This document shows, one piece after another, positions 9,790-60,415 of a stretch of DNA of 64,000 bases (positions are counted from its first letter, which is position 1; each line of letters begins with the position of its first letter). Both the position numbers and the translations under genes were made by a program. The notes under the pieces were generated by a model. That model was not told the origin of the DNA, did not search any database, and saw only the letters and a program-made list of their open reading frames with translations. Source of the DNA: Pseudomonas sp. S30 (GTDB lineage: Bacteria; Pseudomonadota; Gammaproteobacteria; Pseudomonadales; Pseudomonadaceae). The stretch is taken from contig NZ_JACVTO010000004.1 in assembly GCF_016518545.1 (NCBI RefSeq), forward strand, positions 62,001 through 126,000, in the 5' to 3' direction.

Positions 9790-9806
9790 GTACGGGAGCC
9801 TACAAC

Positions 9807-41061: not shown

Positions 41062-41805
41062 ATGACAATAAAGAAACAAGCGATGAATGCGTTCAGCGAA
41101 CTTCAGCCGCTATCAGGCTCGTTTCCGAGCAATCGCAAACAGGCTCTCGCAGAGACACTTCGTCAGCGCGTCCTGCTTATGCACTTGGCGCCTGGCGCGT
41201 GCATCGACGAAGTTGCCTTGTGCGAGGCGTTCGGCTTATCGCGCTCGCCAGTGCGCGAGTTGCTCAGGCAACTGGCGACCGAAGGCTACATCGAGCTGGA
41301 AGCCAACAAGCCGCCGCGTGCAGCCTTCATGGACCAAGGCGCGTTCCTGGGTTTCTTTCAAGCCGCCCCATTGATCTACACCGCCAGCATCCAGCTGGCG
41401 GCGAGCCAGGCGCTGCCCGATGGGCTGCACAGACTCAAGGCCATCCACCGCGACTTGAACAGGGCGACCGAGCAGCGGGACGCGGCGCGTCACCTCATGC
41501 TGAACAACGCGTTTCATCTGCAAATCGGCTACATGGCGCATAACGATTACCTGCTTCCGAGCCTGCGCCGCTTGCTGATCGATCACGCCCGGTTGAGCAG
41601 TCTGGCAGATGCGAACCCTGGCGCCGATGACGCGCAGGTCGGGCGCCGCCTGGCGTACGAGCACTACGAATCGATGATTGGCGCCCTTGAACGGCGCGAT
41701 GCTGAAGCTGCCGGTGTGCTCATGCGCGAGTACTTCGAGCGATCACGCCATCGACTGGCCACATTCGCATTACCCAGGATATTCACTGCCACGGGGGCGG
41801 TTTAA
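41062..41805 (+). CDS. GntR-family (FCD type) transcriptional regulator 1
   Basis: The 247-residue protein has an N-terminal winged helix (about 25-85) with SRSPVRELLRQLATEGYI as recognition region and an all-helical FCD ligand domain (about 95-235) whose likely metal or ligand His residues lie in NNAFHLQIGYMAHNDYL. It is a paralog of the regulator at 47281; even the N-terminal tails match (MTIKKQAMNA and MTQKKFSMNA), which supports the Met at 41062. It heads a same-strand set: oxidase 2, MFS carrier 2, DapA-like lyase and aldehyde dehydrogenase. Two operators before its own start suggest autoregulation. Confidence 0.88.
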   Translation: MTIKKQAMNAFSELQPLSGSFPSNRKQALAETLRQRVLLMHLAPGACIDEVALCEAFGLSRSPVRELLRQLATEGYIELEANKPPRAAFMDQGAFLGFFQAAPLIYTASIQLAASQALPDGLHRLKAIHRDLNRATEQRDAARHLMLNNAFHLQIGYMAHNDYLLPSLRRLLIDHARLSSLADANPGADDAQVGRRLAYEHYESMIGALERRDAEAAGVLMREYFERSRHRLATFALPRIFTATGAV

Positions 41806-41890
41806 CGGCTCATCAATTCCGCGCGCGTTCATCCCGGGTGCTGCGTCACCACCGGGAACGAGCACACACTCTCAACATCGGGTTCCTGCA

Positions 41891-44739: not shown

Positions 44740-45633
44740 GTGAAATTCGAAGGCATCTACACCCCCGCCGTCACCCCCCTCGCCGCAGACGGCTCGATCG
44801 ACAAAGCCGCGTTCGCCGAAGTGCTCGACTACCTGGTCGAGTCCAAGGTCCACGGCATCATCATCGGCGGCTCCACCGGCGAGTACTACGCCCATACCGC
44901 CCAGGAGCGCACCGAACTGGCCGCCCAGGCCAAGGACGTGCTCAATGGCCGCCTGCCATTGATCGTCGGCACCGGCGGTATTCGCACCGAAGACGCCGTG
45001 GCCTTCGCCCAGCACGCCAAGGACATAAAGGCCGACGCGCTGCTGGTCGGCACCCCGCCGTACGCACTGCCGACCCAGCAGGAAATCGCCCTGCACGTCA
45101 AGGCGGTCGACGCTGCTGCCGGCCTGCCGATCATGCTCTACAACTACCCAGGCCGCATGAGCGTGAGCATGGGCGAGGAATTCTTCGATGCCGTGGCCGA
45201 TGTGAAGAACATCGTCGCCATCAAGGAAAGCTCCGGTGACATGGCCCAGCTGCACCGCCTGGCCATCAAACGTCCGAACATCCAGCTGTCGTGCGGCTGG
45301 GACGACCAGGCCCTGGAGTTCTTCGCCTGGGGCGCCAAGAGCTGGGTGTGTGCCGGTTCCAACTTCATCCCGCGCGAGCACGTGGCCCTGTACGAGGCGT
45401 GCGTGGTCGAGAAGAACTTCGACAAGGGTCGCAAGATCATGGCGGCGATGATGCCGCTGATGGACTTCCTCGAAGGTGGCAAGTTCGTCCAGTCGATCAA
45501 GTACGGCGTCTCGCTCAACGGCCTGAGCACCGGGGGCGTGCGCAAGCCGCTGTCCGAGCTGGACGCTGCGGAGAAAGAAGCGTTGCAGGGCGTTGTCAGC
45601 GAACTCAAAGCCACCATCGCCGCCATCAACTGA
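44740..45633 (+). CDS. DapA/NanA-family lyase or synthase
   Basis: The 297-residue class I aldolase-type TIM barrel has the Schiff-base Lys162 (VAIKESSG), Tyr134 (YNYPGRM) and the pyruvate-binding GGSTGEYY loop (GSTGE). Family members cleave or form pyruvate adducts (dihydrodipicolinate synthase, sialate lyase) or deaminate pyrroline-4-hydroxy-2-carboxylate. A biosynthetic DapA role is unlikely here, since it sits in a catabolic set and is followed 12 bases later by an aldehyde dehydrogenase gene. The start is GTG at 44740 with TGGAGA upstream. The pairing suggests that its product is an aldehyde or semialdehyde passed to the dehydrogenase. Confidence 0.82.
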   Translation: MKFEGIYTPAVTPLAADGSIDKAAFAEVLDYLVESKVHGIIIGGSTGEYYAHTAQERTELAAQAKDVLNGRLPLIVGTGGIRTEDAVAFAQHAKDIKADALLVGTPPYALPTQQEIALHVKAVDAAAGLPIMLYNYPGRMSVSMGEEFFDAVADVKNIVAIKESSGDMAQLHRLAIKRPNIQLSCGWDDQALEFFAWGAKSWVCAGSNFIPREHVALYEACVVEKNFDKGRKIMAAMMPLMDFLEGGKFVQSIKYGVSLNGLSTGGVRKPLSELDAAEKEALQGVVSELKATIAAIN

Positions 45634-45645
45634 GGAGGCCCCGAC

Positions 45646-47136
45646 ATGACCGAATTGCTCAGCAAGGACCAGTACGCGGCCATCGCCGCCAACCTGCAAC
45701 TGCGCACCCAGGCGTTCATCGACGGTGAATTCCGCGATGCCATCTCGGGCCGCACCTTCGTCACCACCAATCCGGCTACCGGTAAGCAGCTGGCTGAAGT
45801 CGCCGCGTGCGACGCTCAAGACGTCGACTTGGCCGTGGCCGCCGCCAAGCGCGTGTTCGAGCAGGGCACCTGGTCGAAGATGCAGCCCAACGATCGCAAG
45901 CACGTGCTGCAGAAATTCGCCCAGCTGCTCGAAGACAACGCCCACGAACTGGCCGTGCTCGAAGCGCTGGACAGCGGTAAGCCGGTCAGCGAGTGCCAGA
46001 ACGTCGACGTGCCGGAAACCATCCACACCATTCGCTGGCACGCCGAGCTGATCGACAAGATCTACGACGCCACCGCCCCGACCGGCAACGCGGCCGTGAC
46101 CATGGTGGTACGCGAAGCCATCGGCGTGGTCGGCCTGGTGCTGCCGTGGAACTTCCCGCTGCTGATGTTGGCCTGGAAGATCGCCCCGTCGCTGGCCGCC
46201 GGTTGCTCGATCGTGGTCAAGCCGGCCAAGGAAACCACCCTCAGCGCCCTGCGCGTGGTCGAGCTGGCCCATGAGGCGGGCATCCCGCCTGGCGTGTTCA
46301 ACCTGGTGCCTGGCGGTGGTCGTGAAGTGGGCGAGGCCATCGGCCGCCACATGGACATCCCGATGGTGAGCTTCACCGGCTCCACCGACACCGGCCGGCT
46401 GTTCCTGAAATACGCCGCCGAGTCCAACCTCAAGCGCATTGTGCTGGAACTCGGTGGCAAGAATCCGGCCGTGGTCATGAACGACTGCGAGGACCTGAAT
46501 GAGGTGGCCGAATTCGTCACCGCCGGTGCGTTCTGGAACATGGGCGAGAACTGCTCGGCCTCCTCACGCCTGATCGTGCACAAGGACGTCAAGGACGAGC
46601 TGCTCGGCCTGATCGCCAAGCACCTGAAGGACTGGAAGCTGGGCGACCCGCTGGACCCGGACAACCGCCTGGGGGCGATGGTCAGCAAGGCGCATTTCGA
46701 GAAGGTCAAGTCGTACCTGGACTACGCCGCCGAGCACAAGCTCAACGTCGTGCAGGGCGGCCAGACCGAAGACGGGCTGCGCGTGCAACCGACCATCGTC
46801 GATGGCGTGACCCGCGACGACAAGCTGTTCGTCGAGGAGATTTTCGGCCCGGTGCTGAGCGTGACCAGCTTCGAGACCCTCGACGAGGCCATCGAGCTGG
46901 CCAACGACACCGTCTACGGTCTGGCCGCTTCGGCCTACACCGGCAGCCTGCGCAATGCGCTGCGCCTGTCGCGGGAAATCCGCGCCGGTGTGGTCACGGT
47001 CAACTGCTTCGGTGAGGGGGATGTGAGCACGCCGTTCGGTGGCTACAAGGAATCGGGCTTCGGGGGACGCGACAAGTCCATCTGGGCCCACGATCAATAC
47101 ACGGAGTTGAAGACCATCTGGATCAACGCTTCGTGA
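45646..47136 (+). CDS. PuuC/KauB-like aldehyde dehydrogenase
   Basis: The 496-residue NAD(P)-dependent dehydrogenase has the expected motifs: PWNFPLLM, KPAKETTLSALR, FTGSTDTGR, the general-base Glu in LELGGKNP, the catalytic Cys in NMGENCSAS, and EEIFGPVLSV. The C-terminal block PFGGYKESGFGGRDKS and the ending YTELKTIWI are typical of the PuuC, KauB and gamma-glutamyl-aminobutyraldehyde branch. It should oxidise an amino- or semialdehyde to the acid. GAGGAGG lies nine bases before the Met, and the lyase gene ends 12 bases upstream, so the two form a unit. It ends at a strong terminator. Confidence 0.88.
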   Translation: MTELLSKDQYAAIAANLQLRTQAFIDGEFRDAISGRTFVTTNPATGKQLAEVAACDAQDVDLAVAAAKRVFEQGTWSKMQPNDRKHVLQKFAQLLEDNAHELAVLEALDSGKPVSECQNVDVPETIHTIRWHAELIDKIYDATAPTGNAAVTMVVREAIGVVGLVLPWNFPLLMLAWKIAPSLAAGCSIVVKPAKETTLSALRVVELAHEAGIPPGVFNLVPGGGREVGEAIGRHMDIPMVSFTGSTDTGRLFLKYAAESNLKRIVLELGGKNPAVVMNDCEDLNEVAEFVTAGAFWNMGENCSASSRLIVHKDVKDELLGLIAKHLKDWKLGDPLDPDNRLGAMVSKAHFEKVKSYLDYAAEHKLNVVQGGQTEDGLRVQPTIVDGVTRDDKLFVEEIFGPVLSVTSFETLDEAIELANDTVYGLAASAYTGSLRNALRLSREIRAGVVTVNCFGEGDVSTPFGGYKESGFGGRDKSIWAHDQYTELKTIWINAS

Positions 47137-47280: not shown

Positions 47281-48009
47281 TCAATACGCCAGCGCGACCT
47301 CGACGCCACGGGGGGCGGTGTACTCGGCCATGCGACGCCGGGAGAGTTCCCAGTGTGCCTGAACCACTTCGGTCGCTGCCTGCGGGTCCCGTCGCTCGAT
47401 CGCCTCGATCATCTGATCGTGCTGGTCGCAGGCCAGCTCCAGGTCGCGTTGCATATCGTCGGTCGTGGGATGGCGGTAGAAGATACGGCCTAGCCGTGCG
47501 TGATCGATCAGCAAGCGGCGCAGGCTTGGCATCAAGTATTCGTTGTGCGCCATCTTGCCGATTTCCAGGTGGAATGCATCGTTGAGGATGACGCGGTTTT
47601 CGACGTCCTTGTCCTCGATGGCTTGACGAAATTGATGCTGAATCTGCCTGAGCACTTCGATTTCCGCCGGGCTGGCATGCAGGGCTGCCAGCTGCGTGGT
47701 CGCGATGTAGATCAGTGGTGCAGCCAGAAAGAAGCTGCGCAGCGAGTCATGGTTCATCGCGGCGACACGCGGCGCGCGGTTGGTTTCCAGCTCGATGTAT
47801 CCCTCGGCGGCAATCTGGCGCAACAACTCTCGGACGGGAGGGCGGGACAGGCCGAACTCGTTACCCAGCGCGATCTCGTCGACCACAGCGCCGGGCGCCA
47901 GCTCCATGTTGAGGATGCGACGGCGCAAGGCCTCGCTCAGCACGCTTTTGCGATCGACAGGCACATCCGGGGTCTTGGACGCATTCATGGAGAACTTCTT
48001 CTGGGTCAT
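47281..48009 (-). CDS. GntR-family (FCD type) transcriptional regulator 2
   Basis: The 242-residue protein has a winged helix with SRPPVRELLRQIAAEGYI (about 58-75) and an FCD domain with NDAFHLEIGKMAHNEYL. It is a clear paralog of the regulator at 41062 and shares its N-terminal tail, helix motif and ligand-domain pattern. It is divergent from the betaine-type ABC transporter operon and probably controls it. A TAKACA-N3-TGTMTA dyad lies 40 bases upstream of its start. Confidence 0.88.
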   Translation of the reverse strand: MTQKKFSMNASKTPDVPVDRKSVLSEALRRRILNMELAPGAVVDEIALGNEFGLSRPPVRELLRQIAAEGYIELETNRAPRVAAMNHDSLRSFFLAAPLIYIATTQLAALHASPAEIEVLRQIQHQFRQAIEDKDVENRVILNDAFHLEIGKMAHNEYLMPSLRRLLIDHARLGRIFYRHPTTDDMQRDLELACDQHDQMIEAIERRDPQAATEVVQAHWELSRRRMAEYTAPRGVEVALAY

Positions 48010-48490: not shown

Positions 48491-49342
48491 ATGGGTGTAA
48501 TCAAGAAAGCGCTGTGTGCACTTGCAATGCTGAGCGCAACGATCGTCAACGCGCATGCCGAAGACAAAGTGATCCAGATGGGCACGCTCTCTTGGGAGGA
48601 CCTCACACCGATTACCGGTATCACCAAAAAAGTGCTCGAAGACTCCGGTTATACCGTCAAGGTCACTTCGTTCTCGGAGTGGGGTATCGCCTACGCCGCA
48701 TTGAGCAAAGGGGATATCCAGATACTTGCGTCGCAGATCGACTACGTGGCCCAGGATTACTGGAACCGCAACAAGAATCGCCTGGAGAAACTTTCGCCCG
48801 TTTCCCATGGGTTGTACCAGGGCATCGCGGTGCCCAAGTACGTGCCGATCGACTCGCTCGAGCAGCTCAATGAACAGGCCGACAAGTTCAACAACAAGAT
48901 CATCGGCATCGAGCCGGGTTCGGGGTTGATGAGCGATGCGGCCAAGGCCGTCACCGAGTACGGCATCCGTCTGAACCTGCTCGAAGGCAGTTCTGCGGCC
49001 ATGACCGCGGCGCTCAAGTCCGCCATTGACCGCAAGGAGTGGGTTGCAGTCACCATCTGGGAGCCTTCCTGGATGACGCAGAAGTATGACTTGAAGTTCC
49101 TGAAGGACCCGAAAGGCGTGTTCCCGCCGCCACAGGGCTACTACTGGATCGGCCAGAAAGGCTTTTCCGAGAAGAACCCGCATGCCCGCGAAGTGCTGGC
49201 CGGAGTGTACGTTCCCTTGAGCGATATCACTGCCATCAATGGCGAGGTCAAGGACGGCAAGACGATGGATCAGGCCATGGCCGACTGGACCGCGCGCAAC
49301 GCCGAGCTGATCAAACGCTGGGAAAACATCAAGAAGCCCTGA
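48491..49342 (+). CDS. Glycine betaine-type ABC transporter substrate-binding protein
   Basis: The 283-residue OpuAC/ProX-family protein has a signal peptide (about 1-23, ending NAHAED). Aromatic residues that could form a quaternary-amine cage are seen in the mature part (SWEDLTP, SEWGIAY, IWEPSWM, YYWIG). It should bind a quaternary amine such as glycine betaine, choline, carnitine or proline betaine. The gene is first in an operon with an ATPase, two permeases and a proline-racemase homolog, which points to uptake for breakdown rather than only osmoprotection. AAAAAGG lies before the Met. Confidence 0.88.
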   Translation: MGVIKKALCALAMLSATIVNAHAEDKVIQMGTLSWEDLTPITGITKKVLEDSGYTVKVTSFSEWGIAYAALSKGDIQILASQIDYVAQDYWNRNKNRLEKLSPVSHGLYQGIAVPKYVPIDSLEQLNEQADKFNNKIIGIEPGSGLMSDAAKAVTEYGIRLNLLEGSSAAMTAALKSAIDRKEWVAVTIWEPSWMTQKYDLKFLKDPKGVFPPPQGYYWIGQKGFSEKNPHAREVLAGVYVPLSDITAINGEVKDGKTMDQAMADWTARNAELIKRWENIKKP

Positions 49343-49376: not shown

Positions 49377-49459
49377 CTTCACCGCATTACGCTGTTACCA
49401 ACACTGCCGTAACCGATTTGAATAACAAGACCAGCGTTGACTGGGTTGACGGGTGTGAC

Positions 49460-50578
49460 ATGAAGAATTCAGTTCCTTGCACGAATGACGTGCTGGTCAG
49501 TTGCCAGGGTGTCTGGAAGGTATTCGGCGAGCAGGTGGCCGACGCGATCAAGGCGAGCCGCGAGCAGGGCGCATCGAAGAAGCAGATCCTGCAGGACCAT
49601 GGCTGCGTGATCGGGGTATCCGATGTCAGCCTGGAAGTGAAGCGAGGTGAGATTTTCTGCATCATGGGGCTCTCGGGCAGCGGTAAATCGACCCTGATCC
49701 GCTTGCTCAACAAGCTGATCGAGCCCAGTGCCGGCAAGGTGGTGGTGAAGGGGCAGGACCTGGCCACGCTCGACGGCCCGGGCCTGCGCAAGGTACGCGC
49801 TCAGCAAATCGGCATGGTGTTCCAGAGTGTCGCTTTGCTGCCGCACCGCACGGTGCTCGAGAACGTTGCGTTCGGTCTCGAAGTGCAGGGCGTCGCCAAG
49901 GCCGAGCGCCACGCCTCGGCGCAACGCTCGTTGGAAAAAGTTGGCCTGAGCGATTGGGCGCTGCGCTATCCAGGCGAGCTGTCCGGCGGTATGCAGCAAC
50001 GCGTGGGCCTGGCCCGGGTGTTGACCTGCGACCCCGAAATCATCCTCATGGACGAGCCCTTCAGCGCCCTGGATCCTCTGATCCGTCGCCAACTGCAGGA
50101 TGAGTTCCGCGGCCTGACCAAGTCACTGGGCAAGTCGGCCGTGTTCATCACCCACGATCTTGAAGAGGCCATTCGTCTGGGTGACCGCATCGCGATCATG
50201 AAAGACGGCGTCATCATCCAGGTCGGGACCGCCGAGGATATCGTCCTGAACCCGGCCGACGCCTACGTCGCCGATTTCGTCGCCGGCATCTCGCGGCTGC
50301 ATCTGGTCAAGGCGCACTCGGTGATGTCCAGCCTCGACACGTGGCGCGCGCTGCACCCGCACCTGGACGTCGACACCCTGCCCGCAGCGGGACCGCAGGC
50401 GGACTTGGACACGCTCATCAATCGCCTGATCCACTCCCGCAGCGAGGCCGTGCTGATCGCAGAGGAGGGGCGGCCACTGGGTATCGTCACGCCAACCGAC
50501 CTGCTGCGCGGGGTTCAAGGGGCTGAACGGGAGAGCGAGGAGGGCGGGTCGATCGTTCAGCGGGAGGTGCAGGCATGA
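49460..50578 (+). CDS. Glycine betaine-type ABC transporter ATP-binding protein (ProV/OpuAA-like)
   Basis: The 372-residue ATPase has the ProV-type N-terminal extension, Walker A GLSGSGKSTLIR, signature LSGGMQQRVGLAR, Walker B IILMDEPFSALD and H-loop ITHDLEEA. The C-terminal part (about 280-360) is a short CBS-like region (LIAEEGRPLGIVTPTDLL) that in OpuA senses ionic strength. The Met at 49460 is chosen; an in-frame TTG at 49418 would add 14 residues but has no ribosome site. It overlaps the first permease gene by 4 bases. Confidence 0.9.
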   Translation: MKNSVPCTNDVLVSCQGVWKVFGEQVADAIKASREQGASKKQILQDHGCVIGVSDVSLEVKRGEIFCIMGLSGSGKSTLIRLLNKLIEPSAGKVVVKGQDLATLDGPGLRKVRAQQIGMVFQSVALLPHRTVLENVAFGLEVQGVAKAERHASAQRSLEKVGLSDWALRYPGELSGGMQQRVGLARVLTCDPEIILMDEPFSALDPLIRRQLQDEFRGLTKSLGKSAVFITHDLEEAIRLGDRIAIMKDGVIIQVGTAEDIVLNPADAYVADFVAGISRLHLVKAHSVMSSLDTWRALHPHLDVDTLPAAGPQADLDTLINRLIHSRSEAVLIAEEGRPLGIVTPTDLLRGVQGAERESEEGGSIVQREVQA

Positions 50579-51435
50579 ACCCGTCTACCTTTCCCTCCAC
50601 GTTCGACGCCTCGGTGGATGCGGGGCTGGAGTGGGTAACGGACAGCGGCGCTCAGGTATTCGAGTGGCTCAACGACGTGCTCACCGGCTTGGTCAATGGG
50701 CTCACCTGGGTGCTGAACCTGGCACCTTTCTACGTGGTGGCGCTGGTGTTCGGCGCGCTGGCCTGGCGGCTTTCAGGCCATTGGCGCTCTGCTGCACTCA
50801 CGGCCATCGGCCTGCTGATCTGTGCGTTTCTCGGGTTGTGGACGGAAACCATGAGCACCCTCGCGCTGGTCCTGGCGGCCACGACGCTGGCCTTGCTGGT
50901 CGGCATTCCGCTGGGGGTGATGGGCGGGCTGTGGCCCAAGCTCGATGGCGTCGTGGAGCCGGTGCTCGACCTGCTGCAGACCCTGCCACCCCACATTTAC
51001 CTGCTGCCCGCCATCGCCTTGCTGGGCTACGGCTCCGCGACCGCTCTCGTAGCGACTTTCATCGTCGCCATTCCCCCCGTCTTGCGCCTGACCGCGCTCG
51101 GCATCCGCATGACACCTCGCCCGTTCATCGAGCTCGGTGAGGCCAGCGGCACCCGACCGGCGCAGCTGTTCTTCATGATTCGCCTACCGTTCGCCCTGCC
51201 CAGCATCATGACCGGCGTCAACCAGAGCCTGATGATGGCCTTCGGCATGGTGGTGATCGCGGGCATCGTCGGCTCGGGTGGCCTCGGCGAGGCCATCTAT
51301 GGCGCCATTCGCACACTGGATATCGCGCGTTCGATCGATGCGGCACTGGCGATCGTCATCCTTACCCTGATCCTGGACCGCATGGCCCAGAACGCCACCC
51401 CGTCCCAACGCGAGGCTCAGCACGATGCTCACTGA
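50575..51435 (+). CDS. Glycine betaine-type ABC transporter permease 1
   Basis: The 286-residue ProW/OpuAB-like permease has about six helices and the coupling-loop region ELGEASGTRPAQLFFMIRL, followed by SLMMAFGMVVIAGIVGSGGLG. It overlaps the ATPase gene by 4 bases and the second permease by 11 bases. Two different permease genes imply a heterodimeric channel, unlike the single ProW of E. coli. Confidence 0.9.
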   Translation: MNPSTFPSTFDASVDAGLEWVTDSGAQVFEWLNDVLTGLVNGLTWVLNLAPFYVVALVFGALAWRLSGHWRSAALTAIGLLICAFLGLWTETMSTLALVLAATTLALLVGIPLGVMGGLWPKLDGVVEPVLDLLQTLPPHIYLLPAIALLGYGSATALVATFIVAIPPVLRLTALGIRMTPRPFIELGEASGTRPAQLFFMIRLPFALPSIMTGVNQSLMMAFGMVVIAGIVGSGGLGEAIYGAIRTLDIARSIDAALAIVILTLILDRMAQNATPSQREAQHDAH

Positions 51436-52270
51436 CATGCGTTTCTCGCTGGGTGCGGTCCTGGCGCCGATGGTCGATTGGCTCAACGCGAACTTCCATC
51501 CTGTATTCGCCTTCATCAGCCGCATCGTCGATGCGGTGCTTGGCGGCATCGAAACCGCGTTGCTCGCACTCCCGGCCTGGGGGGTGATCGCGCTGATCAG
51601 CGTGCTGGCGCTGTGGCTGATCAACCTGCGCACGGCCGTGCTGGCCGCTGCCATGCTGGGCTTCTGCTGGCTTTCGGGCCTGTGGACCGCGTCCATGCAG
51701 ACCCTGGCCCTGGTATCGGTGTCGGTGCTGCTGTCCGTCGCCATCGCTTTTCCACTGGGCATCCTCGCCGCGCGCAGACCACGCTTCGAGCGTGCCGCCA
51801 GCCCTGTCCTCAACGTGATGCAGACCGTACCGCCTTGGGTCTACCTGATCCCTGCCGTGATGATCTTCAGCCTGGGTAAGGTGCCGGCCATCATGGCGAC
51901 GGTCATTTACGGTGTTGCGCCGATGATGCGCCTGACCACCCTGGCGTTCCGTCAAGTACCGCGCAATTTGCTGGAGCTCGGTCAGGCGCTCGGTGCGACG
52001 CCCCGGGTGACTCTGTTGAAGATCGAGATTCCGGCCGCCGTGCCGAGCCTGCTGGTCGGCTTGAACCAGTGCATCCTGTTGTCGCTGGCAATGGTGGTGT
52101 TGGCGGGACTGGTCGGGGCCGGGGGACTGGGCGCCGAGGTCACGCGCGGCCTCACGCGCATGGAGATGGGGCTGGGCTTGCGGGCAGGCCTGGCGATCGT
52201 GGCGGTGGCGCTGCTGTTGGACCGCCTCTCGCGTGGCTTTCTGCAACGCCAACCGGTTCGTCAACACTAG
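51425..52270 (+). CDS. Glycine betaine-type ABC transporter permease 2
   Basis: The 281-residue permease is related to the preceding one. Its coupling loop is LLELGQALGATPRVTLLKI and is followed by CILLSLAMVVLAGLVGAGGLG. It starts within the first permease gene and ends nine bases before the proline-racemase homolog, so all five genes from 48491 to 53278 are very likely one operon. Confidence 0.9.
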   Translation: MLTDMRFSLGAVLAPMVDWLNANFHPVFAFISRIVDAVLGGIETALLALPAWGVIALISVLALWLINLRTAVLAAAMLGFCWLSGLWTASMQTLALVSVSVLLSVAIAFPLGILAARRPRFERAASPVLNVMQTVPPWVYLIPAVMIFSLGKVPAIMATVIYGVAPMMRLTTLAFRQVPRNLLELGQALGATPRVTLLKIEIPAAVPSLLVGLNQCILLSLAMVVLAGLVGAGGLGAEVTRGLTRMEMGLGLRAGLAIVAVALLLDRLSRGFLQRQPVRQH

Positions 52271-52279
52271 GGGATACCC

Positions 52280-53278
52280 ATGAGCAAGACGTTCTTCTGT
52301 ATCGATGCCCATGCCTGCGGCAACCCCGTGCGCGTCGTGGTCGGTGGCGCGCCGCTGTTACCTCACGTGAGCATGGCCGAGCGCCGAGCGATGTTCGTGC
52401 GCGATCATGACTGGATGCGCAAGGCACTGATGTTCGAACCCCGCGGTCATGACGTGATGTCTGGCGCCATGATCTACCCGACCGTACGCGAGGATTGCGA
52501 CTTCGCCGTATTGTTCATCGAGGTCAGCGGGAGCCTGCCGATGTGTGGCGCCGGCACCATCGGGCTCAGTACCGTGGTGATCGAGCATGGGCTCGTCAAA
52601 CCGCGCACGCCAGGGCGGCTGGCCATCGAGACCCCGGCCGGCAAAGTGGAGGTGGCGTATGTCGAGCAAGCCGGCAAGGTGACCTCGGTGCGCTTGATCA
52701 ATGTGCCAAGCTACCTGCACGAGCGTGATGTCCAAGTGCAGGTGCCGGGGCTGGGGACGCTGAGCGTGGACGTCGCTTACGGCGGCAACTACTACGCCGT
52801 GGTCGAGCCTCAGCCTGCGTGGCCAGGGCTGGAGGGTCTGTCAGCGGCGCAGATCGTCGATCAGAGCCGGCGCCTGCGCAGCGCACTCGCCTCGGTGTGC
52901 AACCCCCAGCACCCCGAGCACGCCGATATCGGTGGCGTCCACCATGTGCTGTGGTGCGATGACGCCCGCCAGGCGCACGCCGATGGCCGCGGTATCGTGT
53001 TCTATGGCGACAGCGCACTGGACCGCTCACCCGGTGGCACTGGCACCTCGGCACGCCTGGCGCAGCTGTACGGCAAGGGTCGACTGCAGGTGGGTGACAC
53101 CTACTGTAGCGAAAGCCTGATCGGCACGACCTACCTGGGACGGGTCGAATCGGCCTGCAAGGTTGGCGAGTACGATGCCATCGTGCCGAGTATTTCTGGG
53201 TGGGCGCGGGTGATCGGGTTGAACACGCTGTTCGTCGACGAGCAGGATCCGTTGGCGCATGGGTTTCAGGTCGTCTGA
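52280..53278 (+). CDS. Proline racemase-family protein with altered active site (Cys/Gly)
   Basis: The 332-residue protein has the two-domain fold of proline racemase, 4-hydroxyproline 2-epimerase and 3-hydroxyproline dehydratase. The first catalytic Cys is kept (Cys89 in PMCGAGTIG), but the usual His two residues on is Ala91. The second catalytic Cys or Thr is Gly252 (DRSPGGTGTSARLA, normally SPCGTG). With one acid/base residue missing, a simple two-base racemase mechanism is unlikely; a dehydratase, a demethylation-related step or another substrate is possible. It is the last gene of the betaine-type transporter operon, so its substrate is probably what that transporter imports or a product of it. 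Confidence 0.85.
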   Translation: MSKTFFCIDAHACGNPVRVVVGGAPLLPHVSMAERRAMFVRDHDWMRKALMFEPRGHDVMSGAMIYPTVREDCDFAVLFIEVSGSLPMCGAGTIGLSTVVIEHGLVKPRTPGRLAIETPAGKVEVAYVEQAGKVTSVRLINVPSYLHERDVQVQVPGLGTLSVDVAYGGNYYAVVEPQPAWPGLEGLSAAQIVDQSRRLRSALASVCNPQHPEHADIGGVHHVLWCDDARQAHADGRGIVFYGDSALDRSPGGTGTSARLAQLYGKGRLQVGDTYCSESLIGTTYLGRVESACKVGEYDAIVPSISGWARVIGLNTLFVDEQDPLAHGFQVV

Positions 53279-53432: not shown

Positions 53433-53682
53433 AAATGCCTGTGCAGCCGGGATGGCGATGGGGAAGTTCCACGGCGCGCTGCTGCGGATTGCTGCGTGCC
53501 CAGCCGGGCTGGGCGCGGCGGGCGGCAGCGATGGCGTGTTCGGTCAGCTCGACGTCTGCGCGCTCGAAGCGCTCGATCACCTCGCCCGGGTTGGACGGGT
53601 TACGGTTTTCCAGTATGTCGCTGCTGTTGCCGAGCGCGACAAAGGCGCCATCGATGTAGCTGCTCTTGGTAACGAGGGTCAT
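53433..53682 (-). pseudogene. Aldehyde dehydrogenase pseudogene with internal deletion
   Basis: The first 68 or so codons are a normal aldehyde dehydrogenase N-terminus (YIDGAFVALG, LENRNPSNPGEVIERF, AARRAQPGWARSNPQQR). Directly after, in a shifted frame, the DNA at 53444-53473 encodes WNFPIAIPA, the conserved motif normally about 80-90 residues further on. Nothing of the rest of the gene, including the catalytic Cys, is found before the racemase gene. So an internal deletion with frameshift and a loss of the 3' part are both visible. The start overlaps the hydroxyacid dehydrogenase stop (ATGA), so the intact ancestor was coupled to it. Confidence 0.8.
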
Positions 53683-54647
53683 GCGCGGCGAATCCTTTGT
53701 TCAGAGTCCTGGCGGGCGACGAAGTCGGTGATGTTGTCCACGGCGCTGTCCATCAGTTGCTGCATGGCGTCTTCGCTGCTCCAGGCAATGTGCGGGTTGA
53801 GCAGGAAGTCGTCGCGCTCGATCAACTGGAACAGCGGATTGCTCGGGTGTAGCGGCTCGTGCTCCACCACATCCAGCGCCACGCCACCCAAGCGCTCATG
53901 CAGCAGCGCATCGATCAGCGCCGCCTCGTTCACCACACCGCCGCGGCCGGTGTTGACCACTACGGCATCGGGCTTCATCAGAGCCAGCCGCGGGGCATCG
54001 ATCAGGTTGTGGGTTTCGGGGGTGAGCGGGCAGTTGATCGACAGCACGTCGCAGATTTGCAGCAGCTCGGCCAATGGCCGGTAGTCAGGACCTTGACGTT
54101 TGCCGCCGCGGTCTTCGAACAGCACCTGCATGCCGAGCGCTCGCGCCAGGTGCGCCAGGCGCACGGCGATCGGGCCGCTGCCGATGATCGCCAGTTGCTT
54201 GTCGCGCACATCGCGGATGCGGTGATTGAAGTAGATGTTCTGCTGTGGCTTGCTGCCAGCGTGGACCTGGCGCATCAGCCGGGTGAACGCCGCCGGGCGG
54301 CGGAACAGTTCGAGGATCATCGCCAGGCTGTGCTCGGCCACGGTGTTGGCAGCGTACCCAGGCACGCTGGACACCTGGATACCATGGGCCTCGCAGTAGT
54401 CGACATCGACGATGTCGCGTCCGGTCAGGGCCAGCGAGATCATCTTCAGCTTGGGCAACTGGCGCAGGTGTTCTTCGCGCAGCGGCACGCTGCAGGTCAG
54501 CGCGACGGTGGCGTCCTGCAGGTGTTCGAGTACCTGCTCGGGGTGGGTATAGGCGAACTGCTGCCAGGTGTGGTTACAGTCCGGGCGCTTCAGACGGGTC
54601 GAGGGCGCCAGCCCGTCGTCGTCGAGGAAGACGATGTGTTCGCTCAT
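53679..54647 (-). CDS. D-2-hydroxyacid dehydrogenase family protein
   Basis: The 322-residue NAD(P)-dependent enzyme has the catalytic trio of the family: Arg in NTGRGGVV, Glu in VVEHEPLHPSN and His in LNPHIAWSS. The nucleotide loop is IIGSGPIAVRLA, with Ala in place of the last Gly. It resembles glycerate, phosphoglycerate and hydroxypyruvate dehydrogenases. The Met at 54647 follows GAGGA by eight bases; earlier in-frame codons lie in the upstream oxidase gene. It sits between oxidase 3 and the broken aldehyde dehydrogenase in one minus-strand unit. The substrate is unknown. Confidence 0.85.
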   Translation of the reverse strand: MSEHIVFLDDDGLAPSTRLKRPDCNHTWQQFAYTHPEQVLEHLQDATVALTCSVPLREEHLRQLPKLKMISLALTGRDIVDVDYCEAHGIQVSSVPGYAANTVAEHSLAMILELFRRPAAFTRLMRQVHAGSKPQQNIYFNHRIRDVRDKQLAIIGSGPIAVRLAHLARALGMQVLFEDRGGKRQGPDYRPLAELLQICDVLSINCPLTPETHNLIDAPRLALMKPDAVVVNTGRGGVVNEAALIDALLHERLGGVALDVVEHEPLHPSNPLFQLIERDDFLLNPHIAWSSEDAMQQLMDSAVDNITDFVARQDSEQRIRRA

Positions 54648-54657
54648 GCTCGCGTCC

Positions 54658-56049
54658 TCATGGCTTTTGCGCTGGCACGTAGCCGGCCGGAGCCATGCCG
54701 ACCAGTTGGCGAGTGATGAAGCCTGCGTCCTGATCGTGGTCTTCCAGAGACTCCTTGCGCACCAGTGCATCGCGCACCAGGTGGGCGCCAAAGAAGCGCA
54801 GCGGCTCTGGCGGCAGCAGTTTCATCTTCTGGTTGACCAGGCCACAGTTGGCCCACTCGTCATTGGCATGGGTGGCCAACGACTTGATGATGCGGCTGGC
54901 GAACACCGTGGTCGCCACGCCGTTGCCGGAGAAGCCGATGCCATAGCTGACGCTCTGGTGCGGATCGAGGTAGCCGAAGTTGGGCAGGCCTTTCATGGCG
55001 CGGTCGATCGGGCCGGTCCAGCTGCTGACCACCGGCACCTCTTCGAGCTGCGGATACAGCCGGCGCAGTTCGGCGGCGACCCGGTCGGCAGCGGGCGAGG
55101 GTTTTTCGTAGAGGTTGCCGATGCGGCCGGCGTAGGCGAACTGGCCCAACGGCTTGCCGAACACCACGCGCCCGTCCGGGGTGTTGCGCCAGTAGTTGAG
55201 CACGGTGCGCGAGTCGGTCATGCACTCTCCGCGGCTGAAACCGATGGCGTCGAGCTTGGCCTTGACCGGGGCCGTGGCGACCATGTCGCTGGACATGATC
55301 GCGATCATCCGGCGCAGTTCGGGGAACTGCGCGCCCCAGGCGTTGAGCGCGAGCACCACGTGGCCTGCCCTCACGCAGCCCCTGGCAGTGTGCACCACGG
55401 GGTTCTTGCCGCGTTCCAGATGGGTGAACGGGGATTTTTCAAAGATCTGCACGCCGAGCTTGAGCGCGACTCGGCGCAGGCCACGGGCGAGCATGGCCGG
55501 CTGCACGGTGGCAGCGTTGGGGTCGAAGATGCCGCCGAGCACTAGCGGCGAACCGACGCGGCTGCGAATGCTCTGGCGGTCGAGCGCCTGGAACGGATTG
55601 ACGTCGAGATTCTCCAGGCCGTCGGTGAGCACCTTCCACGAGTTCATCTGGCGCTGGTTGGTGGCGGTCCACAGCCAGCCGTCCTTGCGGTACTGGGCAT
55701 CGATACCGTGCTCGGCGCAGAAGCTGCCGATCTCGTCGATAGCCGACTCGGCCGCTTCGCAGAGGCGCCGCGCCTCTACATCGCCGCAGATGGTGCGTAC
55801 CGACAGGTACTTGCCCCACCAATTGGTGGCGATACCGCCGTTGCGCCCACTGGCGCCTGAGCCACAGCGGTCGCGCTCGACGATGACGATGGTTTTTTCC
55901 GGGTGCGCCTGCTTGAGGCGGATGGCCGACCACAGGCCAAGGAAACCACCGCCGACGATGCACACGTCGGCTTGAATCGAGTCCTGCAGGGCAGGGGCCA
56001 GTTCACTGTCCAGGTCAAGCGCCTGGGCATACCAGAATCCACGGTACAT
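54658..56049 (-). CDS. FAD-dependent oxidoreductase, PuuB/DadA-like (oxidase 3)
   Basis: The 463-residue DAO-family protein has the FAD loop VCIVGGGFLGLWSAIRL (about 29-45), SGASGRNGG and a C-terminal GIGFSGNGVATTVFASRII. It is related to gamma-glutamylputrescine oxidase and similar enzymes, but is clearly more distant from the other three oxidases of the window, lacking their WGVIPADPFG and CNGLG blocks. AGAGG lies before the Met. It is the first gene of a unit with the hydroxyacid dehydrogenase and the broken aldehyde dehydrogenase, and is divergent from a GlxA-type regulator. Confidence 0.85.
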   Translation of the reverse strand: MYRGFWYAQALDLDSELAPALQDSIQADVCIVGGGFLGLWSAIRLKQAHPEKTIVIVERDRCGSGASGRNGGIATNWWGKYLSVRTICGDVEARRLCEAAESAIDEIGSFCAEHGIDAQYRKDGWLWTATNQRQMNSWKVLTDGLENLDVNPFQALDRQSIRSRVGSPLVLGGIFDPNAATVQPAMLARGLRRVALKLGVQIFEKSPFTHLERGKNPVVHTARGCVRAGHVVLALNAWGAQFPELRRMIAIMSSDMVATAPVKAKLDAIGFSRGECMTDSRTVLNYWRNTPDGRVVFGKPLGQFAYAGRIGNLYEKPSPAADRVAAELRRLYPQLEEVPVVSSWTGPIDRAMKGLPNFGYLDPHQSVSYGIGFSGNGVATTVFASRIIKSLATHANDEWANCGLVNQKMKLLPPEPLRFFGAHLVRDALVRKESLEDHDQDAGFITRQLVGMAPAGYVPAQKP

Positions 56050-56123
56050 GAGGGGGCCTCTGAGCCTATTGATCTTGTGCAGACATCATGCTCAGCGTGG
56101 CCAGGGCGGCGATATTACAGTCA

Positions 56124-56156
56124 TGACAATTGATAGAACGGCACTGTCTTTTGTCA
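56124..56156. promoter_or_regulatory. TGACAA/TTGTCA dyad in the oxidase 3 - GlxA gap
   Basis: TGACAA at 56124-56129 and TTGTCA at 56151-56156 form an inverted repeat with a 21-base centre in the 175-bp divergent gap. GlxA-type AraC regulators often bind spaced half-sites of this kind, so it is a candidate operator. Confidence 0.35.
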
Positions 56157-56224
56157 CGGATTTACTATTTGTCGGGATGCGTGTGATATGAAGGACGCAG
56201 GGCGCGACTTAGAATGGCGCTATT

Positions 56225-57334
56225 GTGAACGTCATGAGGCCAGCGTCCATGGTTGCTCGACAACAAATAGAACAACAAAAAGAACAACAGATCGCACCGG
56301 TCGCAGCCCCTGTCACCTGCGCGCAGGTAAAGCCTGAACTGCGAGTGGGCTTCGTGCTGATGAACCATTTCACGCTGGTGCCGGTAGCAGGGCTGGTGGA
56401 CTCGCTGCGCTTCGCTGCCGACAAGTCGTTCCGCAGCCAGCAGGTATTCTGCCAATGGGACTGGATGACGCTCGACGACCAGCCGATCACCGCGAGCTGC
56501 GGCATGCCCATTTCCCCGACCAAGCCGCTCGACCTGTTCGCCCAGTATGACTACGTCGTGCTGGCCGGTGGCTTGCTGGACGAAACCCGCAACCCGCCGC
56601 ACTGGTTGCTGGATGCACTGCGCAATGTGCATGCGGCGGGCATTCCGATCATCGCCTTGTGTTCCGGGTCGTTCGTGCTCGGCAAGGCTGGGTTGCTCGA
56701 TGGCCGGCGCTGTGCGTTGCATTTCACCTTGCGCGATGAGTTCAAGGAGCGTTTCCCCCAGTCCACGGCGGTGATTGACAAGAGCTACGTGGATGACCGC
56801 GGCATCATCACCTGCCCGGGCGGCACTGCCATCGATCTGGCGGCCAACCTGATCCGCCGCCATTGCGGCGCGGTACGGGCGCAGAAGGGACTGGAGTACC
56901 TGCTGGTGGACGAGCGAGCCGATGAGCCGCAGGACAGGATCAACGATGACAGCGTGTACCAGAACGATCGGGTGCAGCGGGCGATCAGCTTCATGCGCGC
57001 CAACCTGGACGCCTCGATGACCCTCAAGGCAGTCGCTGAAGCGGCGGGTACCCACCCACGGCAATTGCACCGCGAGTTTGTGGCCAATACCCAGGAACCA
57101 CCGGCCAACTACTGGCGCAAGCTGCGCCTGGATCATGCCAGGCGCTTGCTGGTGAACACTAGCCAGAACATTACGACCATCGCCTTGGCGTGCGGTTTTT
57201 CCGACGCTTCGCATTTCATCCTGTGGTTCCGCAAACAGTATGGCGAGACGCCTTACAGTTTTCGCAAGCGTCGCCATGAGGTAGAGCGCCTCGACTGGCA
57301 TAGTGGCAAGGTAGGGCTGGACCCAGAGTTGTAA
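56225..57334 (+). CDS. GlxA-family transcriptional regulator (DJ-1-like + AraC)
   Basis: The 369-residue protein has an N-terminal class I glutamine amidotransferase-like domain (about 38-205) with IIALCSGSFVLGKAG at the nucleophile-elbow position and a C-terminal AraC DNA-binding domain (about 245-345) with ACGFSDASHFILWFRKQYGETP. This layout is found in regulators of carnitine, betaine, sarcosine and arginine breakdown in Pseudomonas (CdhR, GbdR, SouR, ArgR type). It probably activates oxidase 3 and its neighbours. The start may be GTG at 56225, ATG at 56234 or ATG at 56249. Confidence 0.88.
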   Translation: MNVMRPASMVARQQIEQQKEQQIAPVAAPVTCAQVKPELRVGFVLMNHFTLVPVAGLVDSLRFAADKSFRSQQVFCQWDWMTLDDQPITASCGMPISPTKPLDLFAQYDYVVLAGGLLDETRNPPHWLLDALRNVHAAGIPIIALCSGSFVLGKAGLLDGRRCALHFTLRDEFKERFPQSTAVIDKSYVDDRGIITCPGGTAIDLAANLIRRHCGAVRAQKGLEYLLVDERADEPQDRINDDSVYQNDRVQRAISFMRANLDASMTLKAVAEAAGTHPRQLHREFVANTQEPPANYWRKLRLDHARRLLVNTSQNITTIALACGFSDASHFILWFRKQYGETPYSFRKRRHEVERLDWHSGKVGLDPEL

Positions 57335-57425
57335 CTTGCAGGGCGGGTGTGTGGAGTGAATAGGGCGGCGCTGTGTCTCGCGAGGGCTGTGCAGCAGCCC
57401 CGGCGATCTATCATCGAGTCAGCCC

Positions 57426-57776
57426 CTAGAACAGCACGTAGGTCTTTCGCAGGGTTTCGCGGATATCCCACACTCCCTCGCAGTTTTCCGGGAACAACAC
57501 CGCATCGCCGGCGCGCAGCTCAACCGGCTCACCGCCGTCAGGGGTGAAGGTGCACCAGCCGCTGACGATATGGCTGAACTCACGGTTTTTCAGATAGCGG
57601 CGGAACACGCCTGGGCTGCTTTCCCAGATACCGATGCTGGCGCCGCTGGCCTGGTCGGTCTGCGTCTGGGCTGTGGCGGCTTGGGCGATGAGTTCGCCGA
57701 TGGGCAGGCGGGCCGGGATGGGCGTGCTCAGCGGCGAGGCGGGGGCATTGCGGACAACGGTAAGGACTTGGTTCAT
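57426..57776 (-). CDS. Cupin domain protein (DUF861 type)
   Basis: The 116-residue single-domain cupin has FSHIVSGWCTFTPDGGEPVELRAGDAV and FPENCEGVWDI, the two cupin motifs of the (S)-ureidoglycine/DUF861-type group, with few metal-binding His residues. AAGG lies eight bases before the Met, and the MFS carrier 3 gene ends 12 bases upstream, so they share a transcript. Function unknown; small cupins near amine oxidases may bind or sense a product. Confidence 0.8.
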   Translation of the reverse strand: MNQVLTVVRNAPASPLSTPIPARLPIGELIAQAATAQTQTDQASGASIGIWESSPGVFRRYLKNREFSHIVSGWCTFTPDGGEPVELRAGDAVLFPENCEGVWDIRETLRKTYVLF

Positions 57777-57788
57777 GAAATGACACCT

Positions 57789-59168
57789 TCAGGCTTTGCG
57801 AGCTACAGGGTTGGCAGTGGTGGCGCTGGCACCGACCGCACGACCCAGGGCAGCAGCCTGCTGCAGGTCGAGCTTGCCGGTTTCGGGCGCCAGCCACCAG
57901 GAAATCAGCGCGCCGAACAGCGACACCAGCGCAGCGGCGAACATGGTGTTGGCCACGCCATAAGAGGCCAGGGAGATCGGGACCAGGTAAGTACCTATCG
58001 CCGCGCCGATACGGGACAGCGAGGTGGCCAGGCCAACGGCAGAAGCACGAATTTCGGTGGGGAACAGTTCGTTGGGGTACACGTACTCCAGCACCTGGGC
58101 GCCGCCGATGAGCACTGCATAGGCACCGAACAGCACCAGTACGGTAGTGGGCGAGGCGTCTGGAAACACTCCCAGCATCACCAGGGACATGCCCGACCAG
58201 AGGAAGCTGTGGATCAACATCTTGCGTCGGCCCAGGCGGTTGATCAGTTTAGTGGCAAGCAGGCAGCCGAGGGTGAACAGCAAGGTGATCGCGATTGAGC
58301 CATACGCAGCCCAATCCCCGGTCAGTCGCAGCGCTTGCAAGACTTTGGGGGCAAACGAGTAGATTGCGAACAGTGGCACAATCGCGCAGGTCCAGAACAG
58401 GGTGACGAAGGCCATGCGCCTGCCGTAGCCGGAGTGGAAAAGCGACCATACCGACATCGGTTTGTCGGCCGTCTGTTCTGGTAGGTCGGCAATGGAGTAG
58501 TCGGGGCCATAGACTTTCTTGATCACCGCGTCGGCCTCGTCGCTGCGGCCTTTGCTCAGCAGCCAACGGGGCGATTCCGGCGTGCCATTGCGGGCTATCA
58601 GGAACAGCGCGCCCGGTACGAGGGCGCTGGCCAGTACATAGCGCCAACCGTCTTCACCGCCCACGCGCAGCAGCAACTCGCCGACCATGTAGGCCACGGC
58701 GGCACCGGCAAACCACATCAACACCATCGCTGCCAGCAACGGCCCACGCTGCTTGCGTGGCAGGAATTCGGCCAGCAACGAAGTGGCAATCGGGTAGTCG
58801 GCACCGACCGCGATACCGATCAGCAGGCGCCAGGCGAAGAGTGCCCAGGCGGACTCGACCCAGAACTGTGCTACCGAAAAGCCGACGATAGCGATCAGGT
58901 CGATCAGGTACAAAACCTTGCGCCCGTACTTGTCGGTGAACCAGCCGCCGAGAAACCCACCGAGGAATACCCCGATCAAAGCAGAGGCGGCAATCAACCC
59001 TTCCCAGAACGCGGACAGTTGCAAGGCGTTGGTGATCTGCAGCATGGCGACGCCAATGATGCTCAGCACATAGCCATCCAGAAATGGCCCACCGGCGGAG
59101 TAAACGGTCAGCTTGCGGTGGAAGGCATTGAGCGGGGCATCTTCGACAGAGCGTTTGGACGTGGTCAT
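57789..59168 (-). CDS. MFS transporter, sugar-porter-like (copy 3)
   Basis: The 459-residue twelve-helix carrier shares GGWFTDKYGRK, DYPIATSLLAEFLP, TPESPRWLLSKGR and YPNELFPTEIRAS with the carriers at 36378 and 43347. The Met at 59168 has AAGGTGAG about five bases upstream and is preferred to a GTG three codons earlier. It is followed by the cupin gene. Its place near oxidases 3 and 4 repeats the carrier-plus-oxidase pattern. Confidence 0.86.
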   Translation of the reverse strand: MTTSKRSVEDAPLNAFHRKLTVYSAGGPFLDGYVLSIIGVAMLQITNALQLSAFWEGLIAASALIGVFLGGFLGGWFTDKYGRKVLYLIDLIAIVGFSVAQFWVESAWALFAWRLLIGIAVGADYPIATSLLAEFLPRKQRGPLLAAMVLMWFAGAAVAYMVGELLLRVGGEDGWRYVLASALVPGALFLIARNGTPESPRWLLSKGRSDEADAVIKKVYGPDYSIADLPEQTADKPMSVWSLFHSGYGRRMAFVTLFWTCAIVPLFAIYSFAPKVLQALRLTGDWAAYGSIAITLLFTLGCLLATKLINRLGRRKMLIHSFLWSGMSLVMLGVFPDASPTTVLVLFGAYAVLIGGAQVLEYVYPNELFPTEIRASAVGLATSLSRIGAAIGTYLVPISLASYGVANTMFAAALVSLFGALISWWLAPETGKLDLQQAAALGRAVGASATTANPVARKA

Positions 59169-59632
59169 TGAACTCACCTTTTGTTGTTATTGATGCGTCA
59201 GCGCCGCGGCACTATGACACCGCGGATAGCGGGCTCCATATAACGGCGGGGACGAGTCATGGGATGAGCGGGCAGGCTGCGCCGCGGGCTTATGCAAGTT
59301 GTCCGCGAGGTGCTGGAGGGGGACGGCTTTTCCATCGTGGCCTGGCAGGCGGAAGTGTTTTTGCCTTGCTGGCCCGTGATGTGGAGTAGAGACTTTGCGC
59401 AGTAAAAACGAGAACCCGGAATCCATTCATTTCCCGTCCCCATTGCGATCTCTCGACGGCGACACCTGTGACGTAGTGGTGGCCGGCGCAGTTGGTTTCA
59501 CCGCGACGATGCGGACACCCTCCGCGTAATGGATGACGAGATCGACGACATACTCGCCAAAGCCAGCCGACTGTCTCTCACAGGGGCGGACCGCTTCGCG
59601 ACGGAGCCGCGACGGGGTCGCGGCAGGTGAGT
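59169..59632. other. Gap with possible gene debris
   Basis: This 464-bp stretch has no supported intact gene. On the minus strand around 59460-59600 a frame reads FGEYVVDLVIHYAEGVRIV and then AVKP, which resembles the nuclease core of TnsA-type transposition proteins. It has no start site and no extension, so it may be a relic or chance. Confidence 0.35.
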
Positions 59633-60415
59633 CTATCGACCAGCCAGGTCGGAGCGCGTCAACAGCGCATCCAGCACCACTTCGCACGCCGCCCCCCACG
59701 TGGCGCTCACCGGCTGGTGCATCAGCACCGCCAATCCATCGGCAGTGAAGGTGCCTGGAGTCGCGATAGCTTGCCCCAGGGCCTTGAGCGTATCGCCTGG
59801 CTGTCGTTCGGCACTGGTCACGCAGTCCTGCAGGTTGCCCAGCACCAATGCGCGTGCCTCGGCGGCCGGCAGGCCCTTGTCAATCAACCATTGCTGCAGA
59901 TCGTGCAACAGGAAGTAGAACCAGCCATTCATGCACGCCGCCACCGTAGCCAGTTCGAACTCGGGTTCACCCTGCAGCATCACCAGTTTGCCCAAGGGCC
60001 CCAGCGTCTGGGTGGTGAGTGCATCCGGCGGGCATACCACCACCGTCGTCTGGTTGTACTGTGCGGCGTACGAGAGCATCGCCCGTACACATAAGGCGCC
60101 GGGGAAGGCCGTTTGCAGCTGTGCGAGGCTGACCCCGGCGGCCAGCGATACCAGGCGCTGGTCCGGACGCAGGCGCACTTCACTGGCCAGTTCACCCAAC
60201 GACTGCGGGCGTACGCCGAGGATCACCAACTCGGCACGGTCAATCACCTCCTGGTTGCTGGCCGCAACCTGGCAGCCGTGCGCCTGGGCCAGCGCGGCAG
60301 CCCGTTGCGCATTGCGCGGTGATAGCAGGATCGGGCCATCGAAACCGCTGTGGCGCAGGCCGATGACCACCTTTTCGCTCAGCTCGCCCACCCCGAGAAT
60401 ACCCAGGCTATGCAT
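59633..60415 (-). CDS. ProC-like reductase (pyrroline-carboxylate reductase family)
   Basis: The 260-residue protein has an N-terminal Rossmann fold (LGILGVGELSEKVV), ILGVRPQSL and a C-terminal helical dimer domain. The family signature loop near the C-terminus reads TPGTFTADGL instead of the usual PGGTT-AGL, so the substrate site is changed. True ProC makes proline; this divergent copy in a catabolic set may reduce a cyclic imine such as pyrroline-2-carboxylate made by an oxidase or by the racemase-family protein. AAGGAGG lies before the Met and the oxidase 4 gene ends 12 bases upstream. Confidence 0.8.
   Translation of the reverse strand: MHSLGILGVGELSEKVVIGLRHSGFDGPILLSPRNAQRAAALAQAHGCQVAASNQEVIDRAELVILGVRPQSLGELASEVRLRPDQRLVSLAAGVSLAQLQTAFPGALCVRAMLSYAAQYNQTTVVVCPPDALTTQTLGPLGKLVMLQGEPEFELATVAACMNGWFYFLLHDLQQWLIDKGLPAAEARALVLGNLQDCVTSAERQPGDTLKALGQAIATPGTFTADGLAVLMHQPVSATWGAACEVVLDALLTRSDLAGR

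Follow-up and report, generated by a model that had tools for sequence, protein, structure and literature searches.

The last gene of a betaine-type transporter operon in Pseudomonas sp. S30 encodes a member of the proline racemase superfamily (PRS) with a Cys/Gly active site, in which the second catalytic cysteine and the histidine near the ring nitrogen are both replaced. PRS enzymes are a textbook case of two-thiol, cofactor-free racemisation. We observe directly which residues are altered and how far they are conserved, the makeup of the operon, and the company that a neighbouring catabolic module keeps with betaine transporters and betaine demethylases. The substrate is likely to be N-methylated or quaternary, and from residues and context we infer, at a little less than even confidence, that the protein is a one-thiol 4-hydroxyproline-betaine 2-epimerase, an analogue of HpbD on the PRS fold. 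Neither the superfamily nor the operon type nor the predicted reaction is new; the Cys/Gly site and the combination are undescribed in the literature searched. A conserved one-thiol lineage poses directly the question whether enzymes of this kind require the second thiol, and proteins with Cys/His/Cys (CHC), Cys/Ala/Cys (CAC) and Cys/Ala/Gly (CAG) at residues 89/91/252 offer, side by side, a natural series for testing that need. The lineage also predicts a pathway by which Pseudomonas and Rhizobium may handle plant betaines, and it draws attention to a family labelled 4-hydroxyproline epimerase by automatic annotation.

Active site of the window protein

The window is the whole stretch of 64,000 nucleotides that was analysed, and coordinates refer to its + strand unless stated. 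A complete PRS gene of 332 codons lies at 52280-53278; its ATG start comes 9 bases after the second ProW gene ends, and the AGGGG stretch before it overlaps the stop codon of that gene. The protein matches PF05544 over its whole length (residues 7-330, 416.7 bits against a cut-off of 27) and no second Pfam family at E 0.001, so it is not an enolase-superfamily sequence. It also scores 537 bits against the equivalog profile NF010578 (4-hydroxyproline 2-epimerase; cut-off 376), and its NCBIfam label is that of an ordinary 4-hydroxyproline epimerase.

The original prediction placed Cys89, Ala91 and Gly252 in the active site, and the codons, read directly, bear it out: TGT at 52544-52546, GCC at 52550-52552 and GGT at 53033-53035. 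Of the 84 tree rows, 83 have the catalytic Cys at position 89 and one is Ser-type; Ala91 replaces the ring-nitrogen-contacting His of the MCGHG motif, a role described for that His in the available part of PMC4113996; and Gly252 replaces the second catalytic Cys. An alignment placing another Cys or Thr at position 252 would have undone the prediction, and none was found, since the motif DRSP-x-GTGTSAR aligns there without gaps. A sequencing error or a shifted alignment is ruled out because the identical three residues recur in 32 other distinct sequences. The assigned pairs listed with the prediction (Cys/Cys, Ser/Cys and Cys/Thr) leave out Ser/Thr, which is in PMC4113996 (partial text).

Crystal structures of 4-hydroxyproline 2-epimerase (4HypE) show the ring nitrogen held by His90 and Asp232, with one Cys on each face; in a Ser/Cys enzyme the first-motif residue serves the trans to cis direction, and the second residue of a Ser/Thr dehydratase is oriented non-catalytically (PMC4113996, partial text). 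Measured against what defines a 4-hydroxyproline 2-epimerase, the window protein has C89/G252 in place of two acid/base residues (Cys/Cys or Ser/Cys) and A91 in place of the MCGHG His (Ser in the Ser-type) near the ring nitrogen, and it keeps the hydroxyl site (Ser/Val at site 1, His at site 4, Tyr/Cys at site 5) as S61/H222/Y242. Sites 1, 4 and 5 separate HypE from ProR (PMC4364671, partial text) and were mapped here by alignment to 6j7c. Every one of the 33 CAG rows has all three residues; among the 39 CHC rows of at least 49% identity, S61 and H222 are present in all 39 and Y242 in 38. Because these HypE-type residues are retained, recognition of the 4-hydroxyl looks to have been kept in the CAG proteins. 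The residue contacting the nitrogen has gone from His to Ala and the one on the opposite face from Cys to Gly, changes that would free room around the nitrogen, which a pair of N-methyl groups would require. Two other side chains could act as the second acid, His221 or Cys226. Position 221 is His in all 32 main-clade rows, Glu in the outlying CAG protein L058 and Ser in 36 of 39 Cys/Cys rows. Cys226 is found in all 33 CAG rows and is not special to Cys/Gly, as it also occurs in three Cys/Cys sisters and in the CAC protein L060. An AlphaFold2 prediction from five rows was poor (mean pLDDT 48.6).

Relatives and conservation of the Cys/Gly site

Relatives were gathered from order, genus, phylum, genome contigs and plasmids (motif read in 4 of 558 plasmid records). 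Counting each distinct sequence once, with the window included and rows below 43% identity excluded, 79 sequences of at least 43% identity divide into 33 CAG, 44 CHC, one CAC and one decayed copy. The CAG proteins are hosted by soil and root bacteria, of Pseudomonas and Rhizobiaceae, and all relatives read at 65% identity or more are CAG. The decayed copy, from the Cys/Cys group (G562; L111/L063, about 9455-10400), has a TGA exactly at codon 89; a selenoprotein was considered and rejected, given the frameshifted N-terminus and decayed appearance of this copy.

For the tree, 103 distinct rows were reduced to 84 by leaving out the decayed copy, two incomplete rows and 16 of less than 36.5% identity, with L140 kept as an exception; the three motif columns were removed, and the tree is a quick one with no bootstrap. 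One clade unites 32 CAG rows (SH-aLRT 99), and its sister group (SH-aLRT 95) holds three CHC rows, L060 (CAC) and L058 (CAG). A similarity comparison had been suggested to see whether Cys/Gly forms its own clade and keeps its gene context: it does, in 32 of the 33 CAG proteins and with the betaine-transporter operon. The tree requires two changes at Gly252 and two at Ala91. Most simply Gly252 was gained twice, and Ala91 could reflect two gains, or one gain and one loss; the Pseudomonas protein L058 is a probable separate second origin of Cys/Gly. L060 (genome G543) is a possible natural intermediate between CHC and CAG.

With one of two catalytic residues absent, the protein might be suspected of being a degenerate PRS remnant, or one that binds without catalysis. 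That is very improbable given a dN/dS of about 0.07-0.09 against the two nearest species (a rough value, as synonymous sites are near saturation), the retention of Cys89 in every CAG row and the occurrence in both Pseudomonas and Rhizobiaceae; the truly decayed copy in G562, with its frameshift and stop, looks quite different.

Transporter operon and catabolic module

As the original prediction held, the PRS gene is the final gene of a betaine-type transporter operon, OpuAC-ProV-ProW-ProW-PRS. It follows an OpuAC-type betaine-binding protein (48491-49342; PF04069, 207 bits; best solved relatives OpuA/OpuAC), a ProV-type ATPase (49418-50578, TTG start as listed; TIGR01186, 344.8 bits, cut-off 326.6) and two ProW-type permeases (50575-51435 and 51425-52270; TIGR03416, 244.9 and 260.5 bits, both under the cut-off of 363). 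A GntR/FCD regulator is divergent from the operon (47281-48009, - strand), and a 92% identical protein stands at the same place in another CAG stretch, L033 of P. parafulva, whose PRS protein shares 88% identity with that of the window. The binding protein, ATPase and permeases are of the kind found in OpuA/ProU betaine importers; unlike those, this operon lies with catabolic genes and has two separate permeases. Aromatic residues such as W35 and W190 are present in 24 of 24 OpuAC proteins compared, and these cage residues fit a betaine and do not say which one.

Upstream lies a module of a FAD-dependent oxidase/dehydrogenase of the DAO superfamily (41888-43210, start codon chosen by us; AmaA-like, 152 bits, below cut-off; 33% identity to the Rhizobium module oxidase), an MFS transporter (43347-44675) with relatives equally placed in other Pseudomonas and Cupriavidus modules, a DHDPS-superfamily enzyme (44740-45633; PF00701, 199 bits; motifs GGSTGEY, YNYPGR and IKESSG) and an aldehyde dehydrogenase (ALDH; 45646-47136; PuuC-like, 531 bits, under the cut-off of 850). 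Beside it a second GntR-type regulator (41062-41805; TIGR03338, 63 bits, below cut-off) is assigned to the module from position only.

The ProW gene is directly upstream of PRS for 32 of 33 CAG sequences versus 0 of 44 CHC sequences, and the whole operon is found in 24 of 24 distinct CAG stretches of at least 13 kb (the window included; L097 and L098 counted for L033 and L034). DHDPS, ALDH and DAO-type oxidase accompany it in 23 of these 24, with the ALDH cut by the stretch end in four; in the remaining genome (G599) the module is about 11 kb away (L193). In 398 Pseudomonas genomes drawn (two draws taken as the same genomes), the module DHDPS gene (E 1e-100) is present in 24 of 24 with an Ala91 PRS versus 65 of the 374 others, four of which have 43-45% PRS matches with the motif unread. 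Among the 24 are G316 and G543, in which the Ala91 PRS gene lies apart from the operon. The ProW, operon and DHDPS counts are not independent events, as nearly all come from one clade.

A dedicated partnership of PRS and module was considered and rejected. The module is not tied to the Ala91 PRS: in those 65 Pseudomonas genomes the DHDPS gene occurs although no Ala91 PRS is known there. In G586 (L194) and G603 (L183) the operon and module stand without an adjoining PRS; G586 has an ordinary CHC PRS elsewhere, and G603 has no PRS match at E 1e-80. L058 lies outside the operon; its genome (G316) does carry the OpuAC operon and module at another place, with no PRS gene included, and the same holds for the genome of the CAC protein (G543). 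Paracoccus denitrificans has the same operon and module and no PRS (L139); this species and Rhodobacter sphaeroides are named in connection with betaine breakdown in PMC11337228 (partial text). On a Cupriavidus sp. P-10 plasmid (L143, 9101-15400) the GntR-oxidase-MFS-DHDPS-ALDH module is arranged as in the window at 68-74% identity, and the 26.9 kb stretch contains neither a PRS nor an OpuAC match. In Rhizobium ACO-34A, a Ser/Ser/Thr-type PRS annotated as hypothetical (L140, 17854-18885) follows the same module and a GlxA regulator, so that another PRS type is paired there with DHDPS, ALDH and oxidase.

Downstream of the PRS gene, 53679-60415 holds a separate amine-type cluster with a D-2-hydroxyacid dehydrogenase, a GlxA regulator, a cupin, an MFS transporter (57789-59177, about 13 kb from that of the module), a ProC-like reductase and an aminophosphonate-oxidoreductase-like DAO protein (512 bits against a cut-off of 633). 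This cluster is absent beside PRS in L033 and L034.

The original prediction allowed either a dehydration or an epimerisation. Thr-type PRS dehydratases share with the window protein one catalytic first-motif residue and a non-catalytic second one, and as the second residue is non-catalytic in the Ser/Thr dehydratase (PMC4113996, partial text), Cys/Gly is mechanistically closest to Cys/Thr, and Gly would on that view simply stand in for a non-catalytic Thr. Thr-type proteins differ in the Thr itself and in having His or Ser at 91 (one row is CHT, another SST). We nevertheless regard a dehydratase as unlikely. The residues that read the hydroxyl are of the HypE type; on the tree the Cys/Gly clade falls inside Cys/Cys proteins, away from the Cys/Thr row (L015); and among 17 window neighbours scanned there is no match to the OCD or MLD2 reductase of the dehydration route. 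Because oxidase, DHDPS and ALDH superfamilies adjoin instead, the context favours 2-epimerisation of a 4-hydroxyproline-type substrate over dehydration.

That substrate could be free, already demethylated hydroxyproline, on which an ordinary 4-hydroxyproline 2-epimerase would act with water replacing the second thiol. The protein does resemble the Cys/Cys enzymes (NF010578/PRK13971) in fold family, in 50-63% identity to the nearest members and in Ser61/His222/Tyr242/Asp248; its NF010578 score is well above cut-off, and the hydroxyl-reading residues are retained. Even so, this explanation is improbable: unlike those enzymes it is without the second Cys and the MCGHG His, both losses are present in all 32 rows of the main clade, the gene sits in a betaine transporter operon, and the His that contacts the free imino group (PMC4113996, partial text) is gone. 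Furthermore, 20 of the 24 Ala91 Pseudomonas genomes, that of the window among them, have a separate ordinary 4HypE gene, in all 20 cases CHC, which argues against an ordinary role for the Ala91 PRS. Five Rhizobiaceae have no match to that 4HypE type at E 1e-60, and one of them (G745) has a CHC relative of the window protein (L117).

Betaine demethylation genes, HpbD relatives and the proposed reaction

Around the operon of Rhizobium CIAT894 lie genes for a Rieske oxygenase, a GbcB-like reductase, ETF subunits and an OYE-type flavoenzyme, together with formaldehyde-oxidation genes and, in the same neighbourhood, putA. The best solved matches of the Rieske oxygenase are 3vca, which we take to be the Sinorhizobium stachydrine demethylase, and 4qup. 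Relatives of this protein (40-95% identity) lie within about 13 kb of PRS in 8 of 27 CAG genomes; only nearness was used, and presence anywhere in the genome was dropped as uninformative because all 27 have such a gene. The module keeps similar company where the CAG PRS is missing. Of 18 alphaproteobacterial stretches, 7 have an MttB-family gene (at least 68% identity) next to it, two of these 7 being in pieces, and MttB also adjoins it in L138, L141 and L142; 7 of 20 further Pseudomonas module stretches, some cut by the stretch end, have an adjoining Rieske gene and a second betaine-type ABC transporter.

HpbD, an enolase-superfamily enzyme with a metal-dependent mechanism, is unrelated in fold and mechanism but shares the predicted reaction, and a relative of it adjoins a homologous DHDPS/ALDH/oxidase module in Mesorhizobium (L142). 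There the module (DHDPS 56%, ALDH 56% and oxidase 43% identity) lies beside both MttB and the HpbD relative, whose closest solved structures, 4e8g/4izg/4j1o and 2pmq/4h2h, are, judging by names and ligands, presumably those of HpbD. Pieces of an HpbD-type gene accompany the module in L141 and L138. In the 18 alphaproteobacterial module stretches we found no HpbD relative above 35% and no CAG-clade PRS, and two of them carry a PRS, its motif unread, that shares 56% identity with that of Rhizobium. HpbD relatives (at least 54%) are present in 3 of 27 CAG genomes. Hence replacement of HpbD is not clean, and the idea that HpbD and the CAG PRS are strict alternatives is unsupported.

Betaine importers of the OpuA/ProU kind accept several betaines, and the protein could be a racemase or an alpha-deprotonating lyase for a different betaine, whether cyclic or open-chain, or for an N-methyl amino acid (candidates being proline betaine, pipecolate betaine and N-methylhydroxyproline). 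The resemblance of the module oxidase to the pipecolate oxidase AmaA (below cut-off, as above) and the putA gene near the CIAT894 operon are consistent with this. We think it rather unlikely, since S61/H222/Y242, which all 33 CAG rows share, point towards a 4-hydroxyl, and the established proline betaine pathway needs no DHDPS- or ALDH-superfamily enzymes.

The protein probably inverts the ring of a methylated plant compound, with hydroxyproline betaine as an example. As a one-thiol hydroxyproline-betaine epimerase, the protein would receive a betaine imported by OpuAC-ProV-ProW-ProW, and Cys89 would take the alpha proton of the L epimer. The missing His91 and Cys252 side chains would leave room for two N-methyl groups, Asp248 would face the ammonium, and Ser61, His222 and Tyr242 would read the 4-hydroxyl. 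Reprotonation from the opposite side would come from water occupying the Gly252 cavity, or else from a second acid, for instance His221 or Cys226; the D epimer would then be N-demethylated and oxidised by the module. Several points count against such an epimerase. To our knowledge one-thiol PRS epimerisation has no precedent; the module is independent of PRS; HpbD relatives co-occur in 3 of 27 genomes; and the window-type module enzymes belong to a distinct subfamily, with a DHDPS that is distant, at 27-36% identity, from the DHDPS of Cys/Cys loci, which together with the PuuC-like ALDH leaves the 4-hydroxyproline end of the pathway unproven. In the available parts of PMC4113996 and PMC4364671, PRS epimerases keep two acid/base residues (Cys/Cys or Ser/Cys).

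More broadly, and with rather more doubt than trust, we propose that a PRS lineage shed one thiol and its nitrogen-binding His for a quaternary ammonium substrate, activating C2 with a single Cys, inverting or otherwise; most simply this arose twice, and it would provide a non-homologous counterpart to HpbD and, within the scope of our searches, the first PRS enzyme to act on a betaine. The N-methylated or quaternary substrate of the original prediction fits both the context and the residue changes; the new chemistry that it also suggested is not established by the evidence. Some PRS clusters are reported to lack one or both Cys (eLife 2014, partial text), and the word Gly is absent from that text, result tables aside. 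The literature searched, mainly open texts, yielded no Cys/Gly PRS or PRS on a betaine; Tables 1 and 2 of PMC4113996, whose screen included proline betaine derivatives (partial text), fall outside it, so a tested Cys/Gly protein could be there.

Beside the Rhizobium betaine cluster we also observe a DddP-like M24 protein (L066, 16209-17489, - strand; 361 bits against a cut-off of 600) and annotated DMSP lyases (L066, 1990-2682; L137, 30507-31109). These DMSP-lyase relatives are possibly lyases for other onium compounds.
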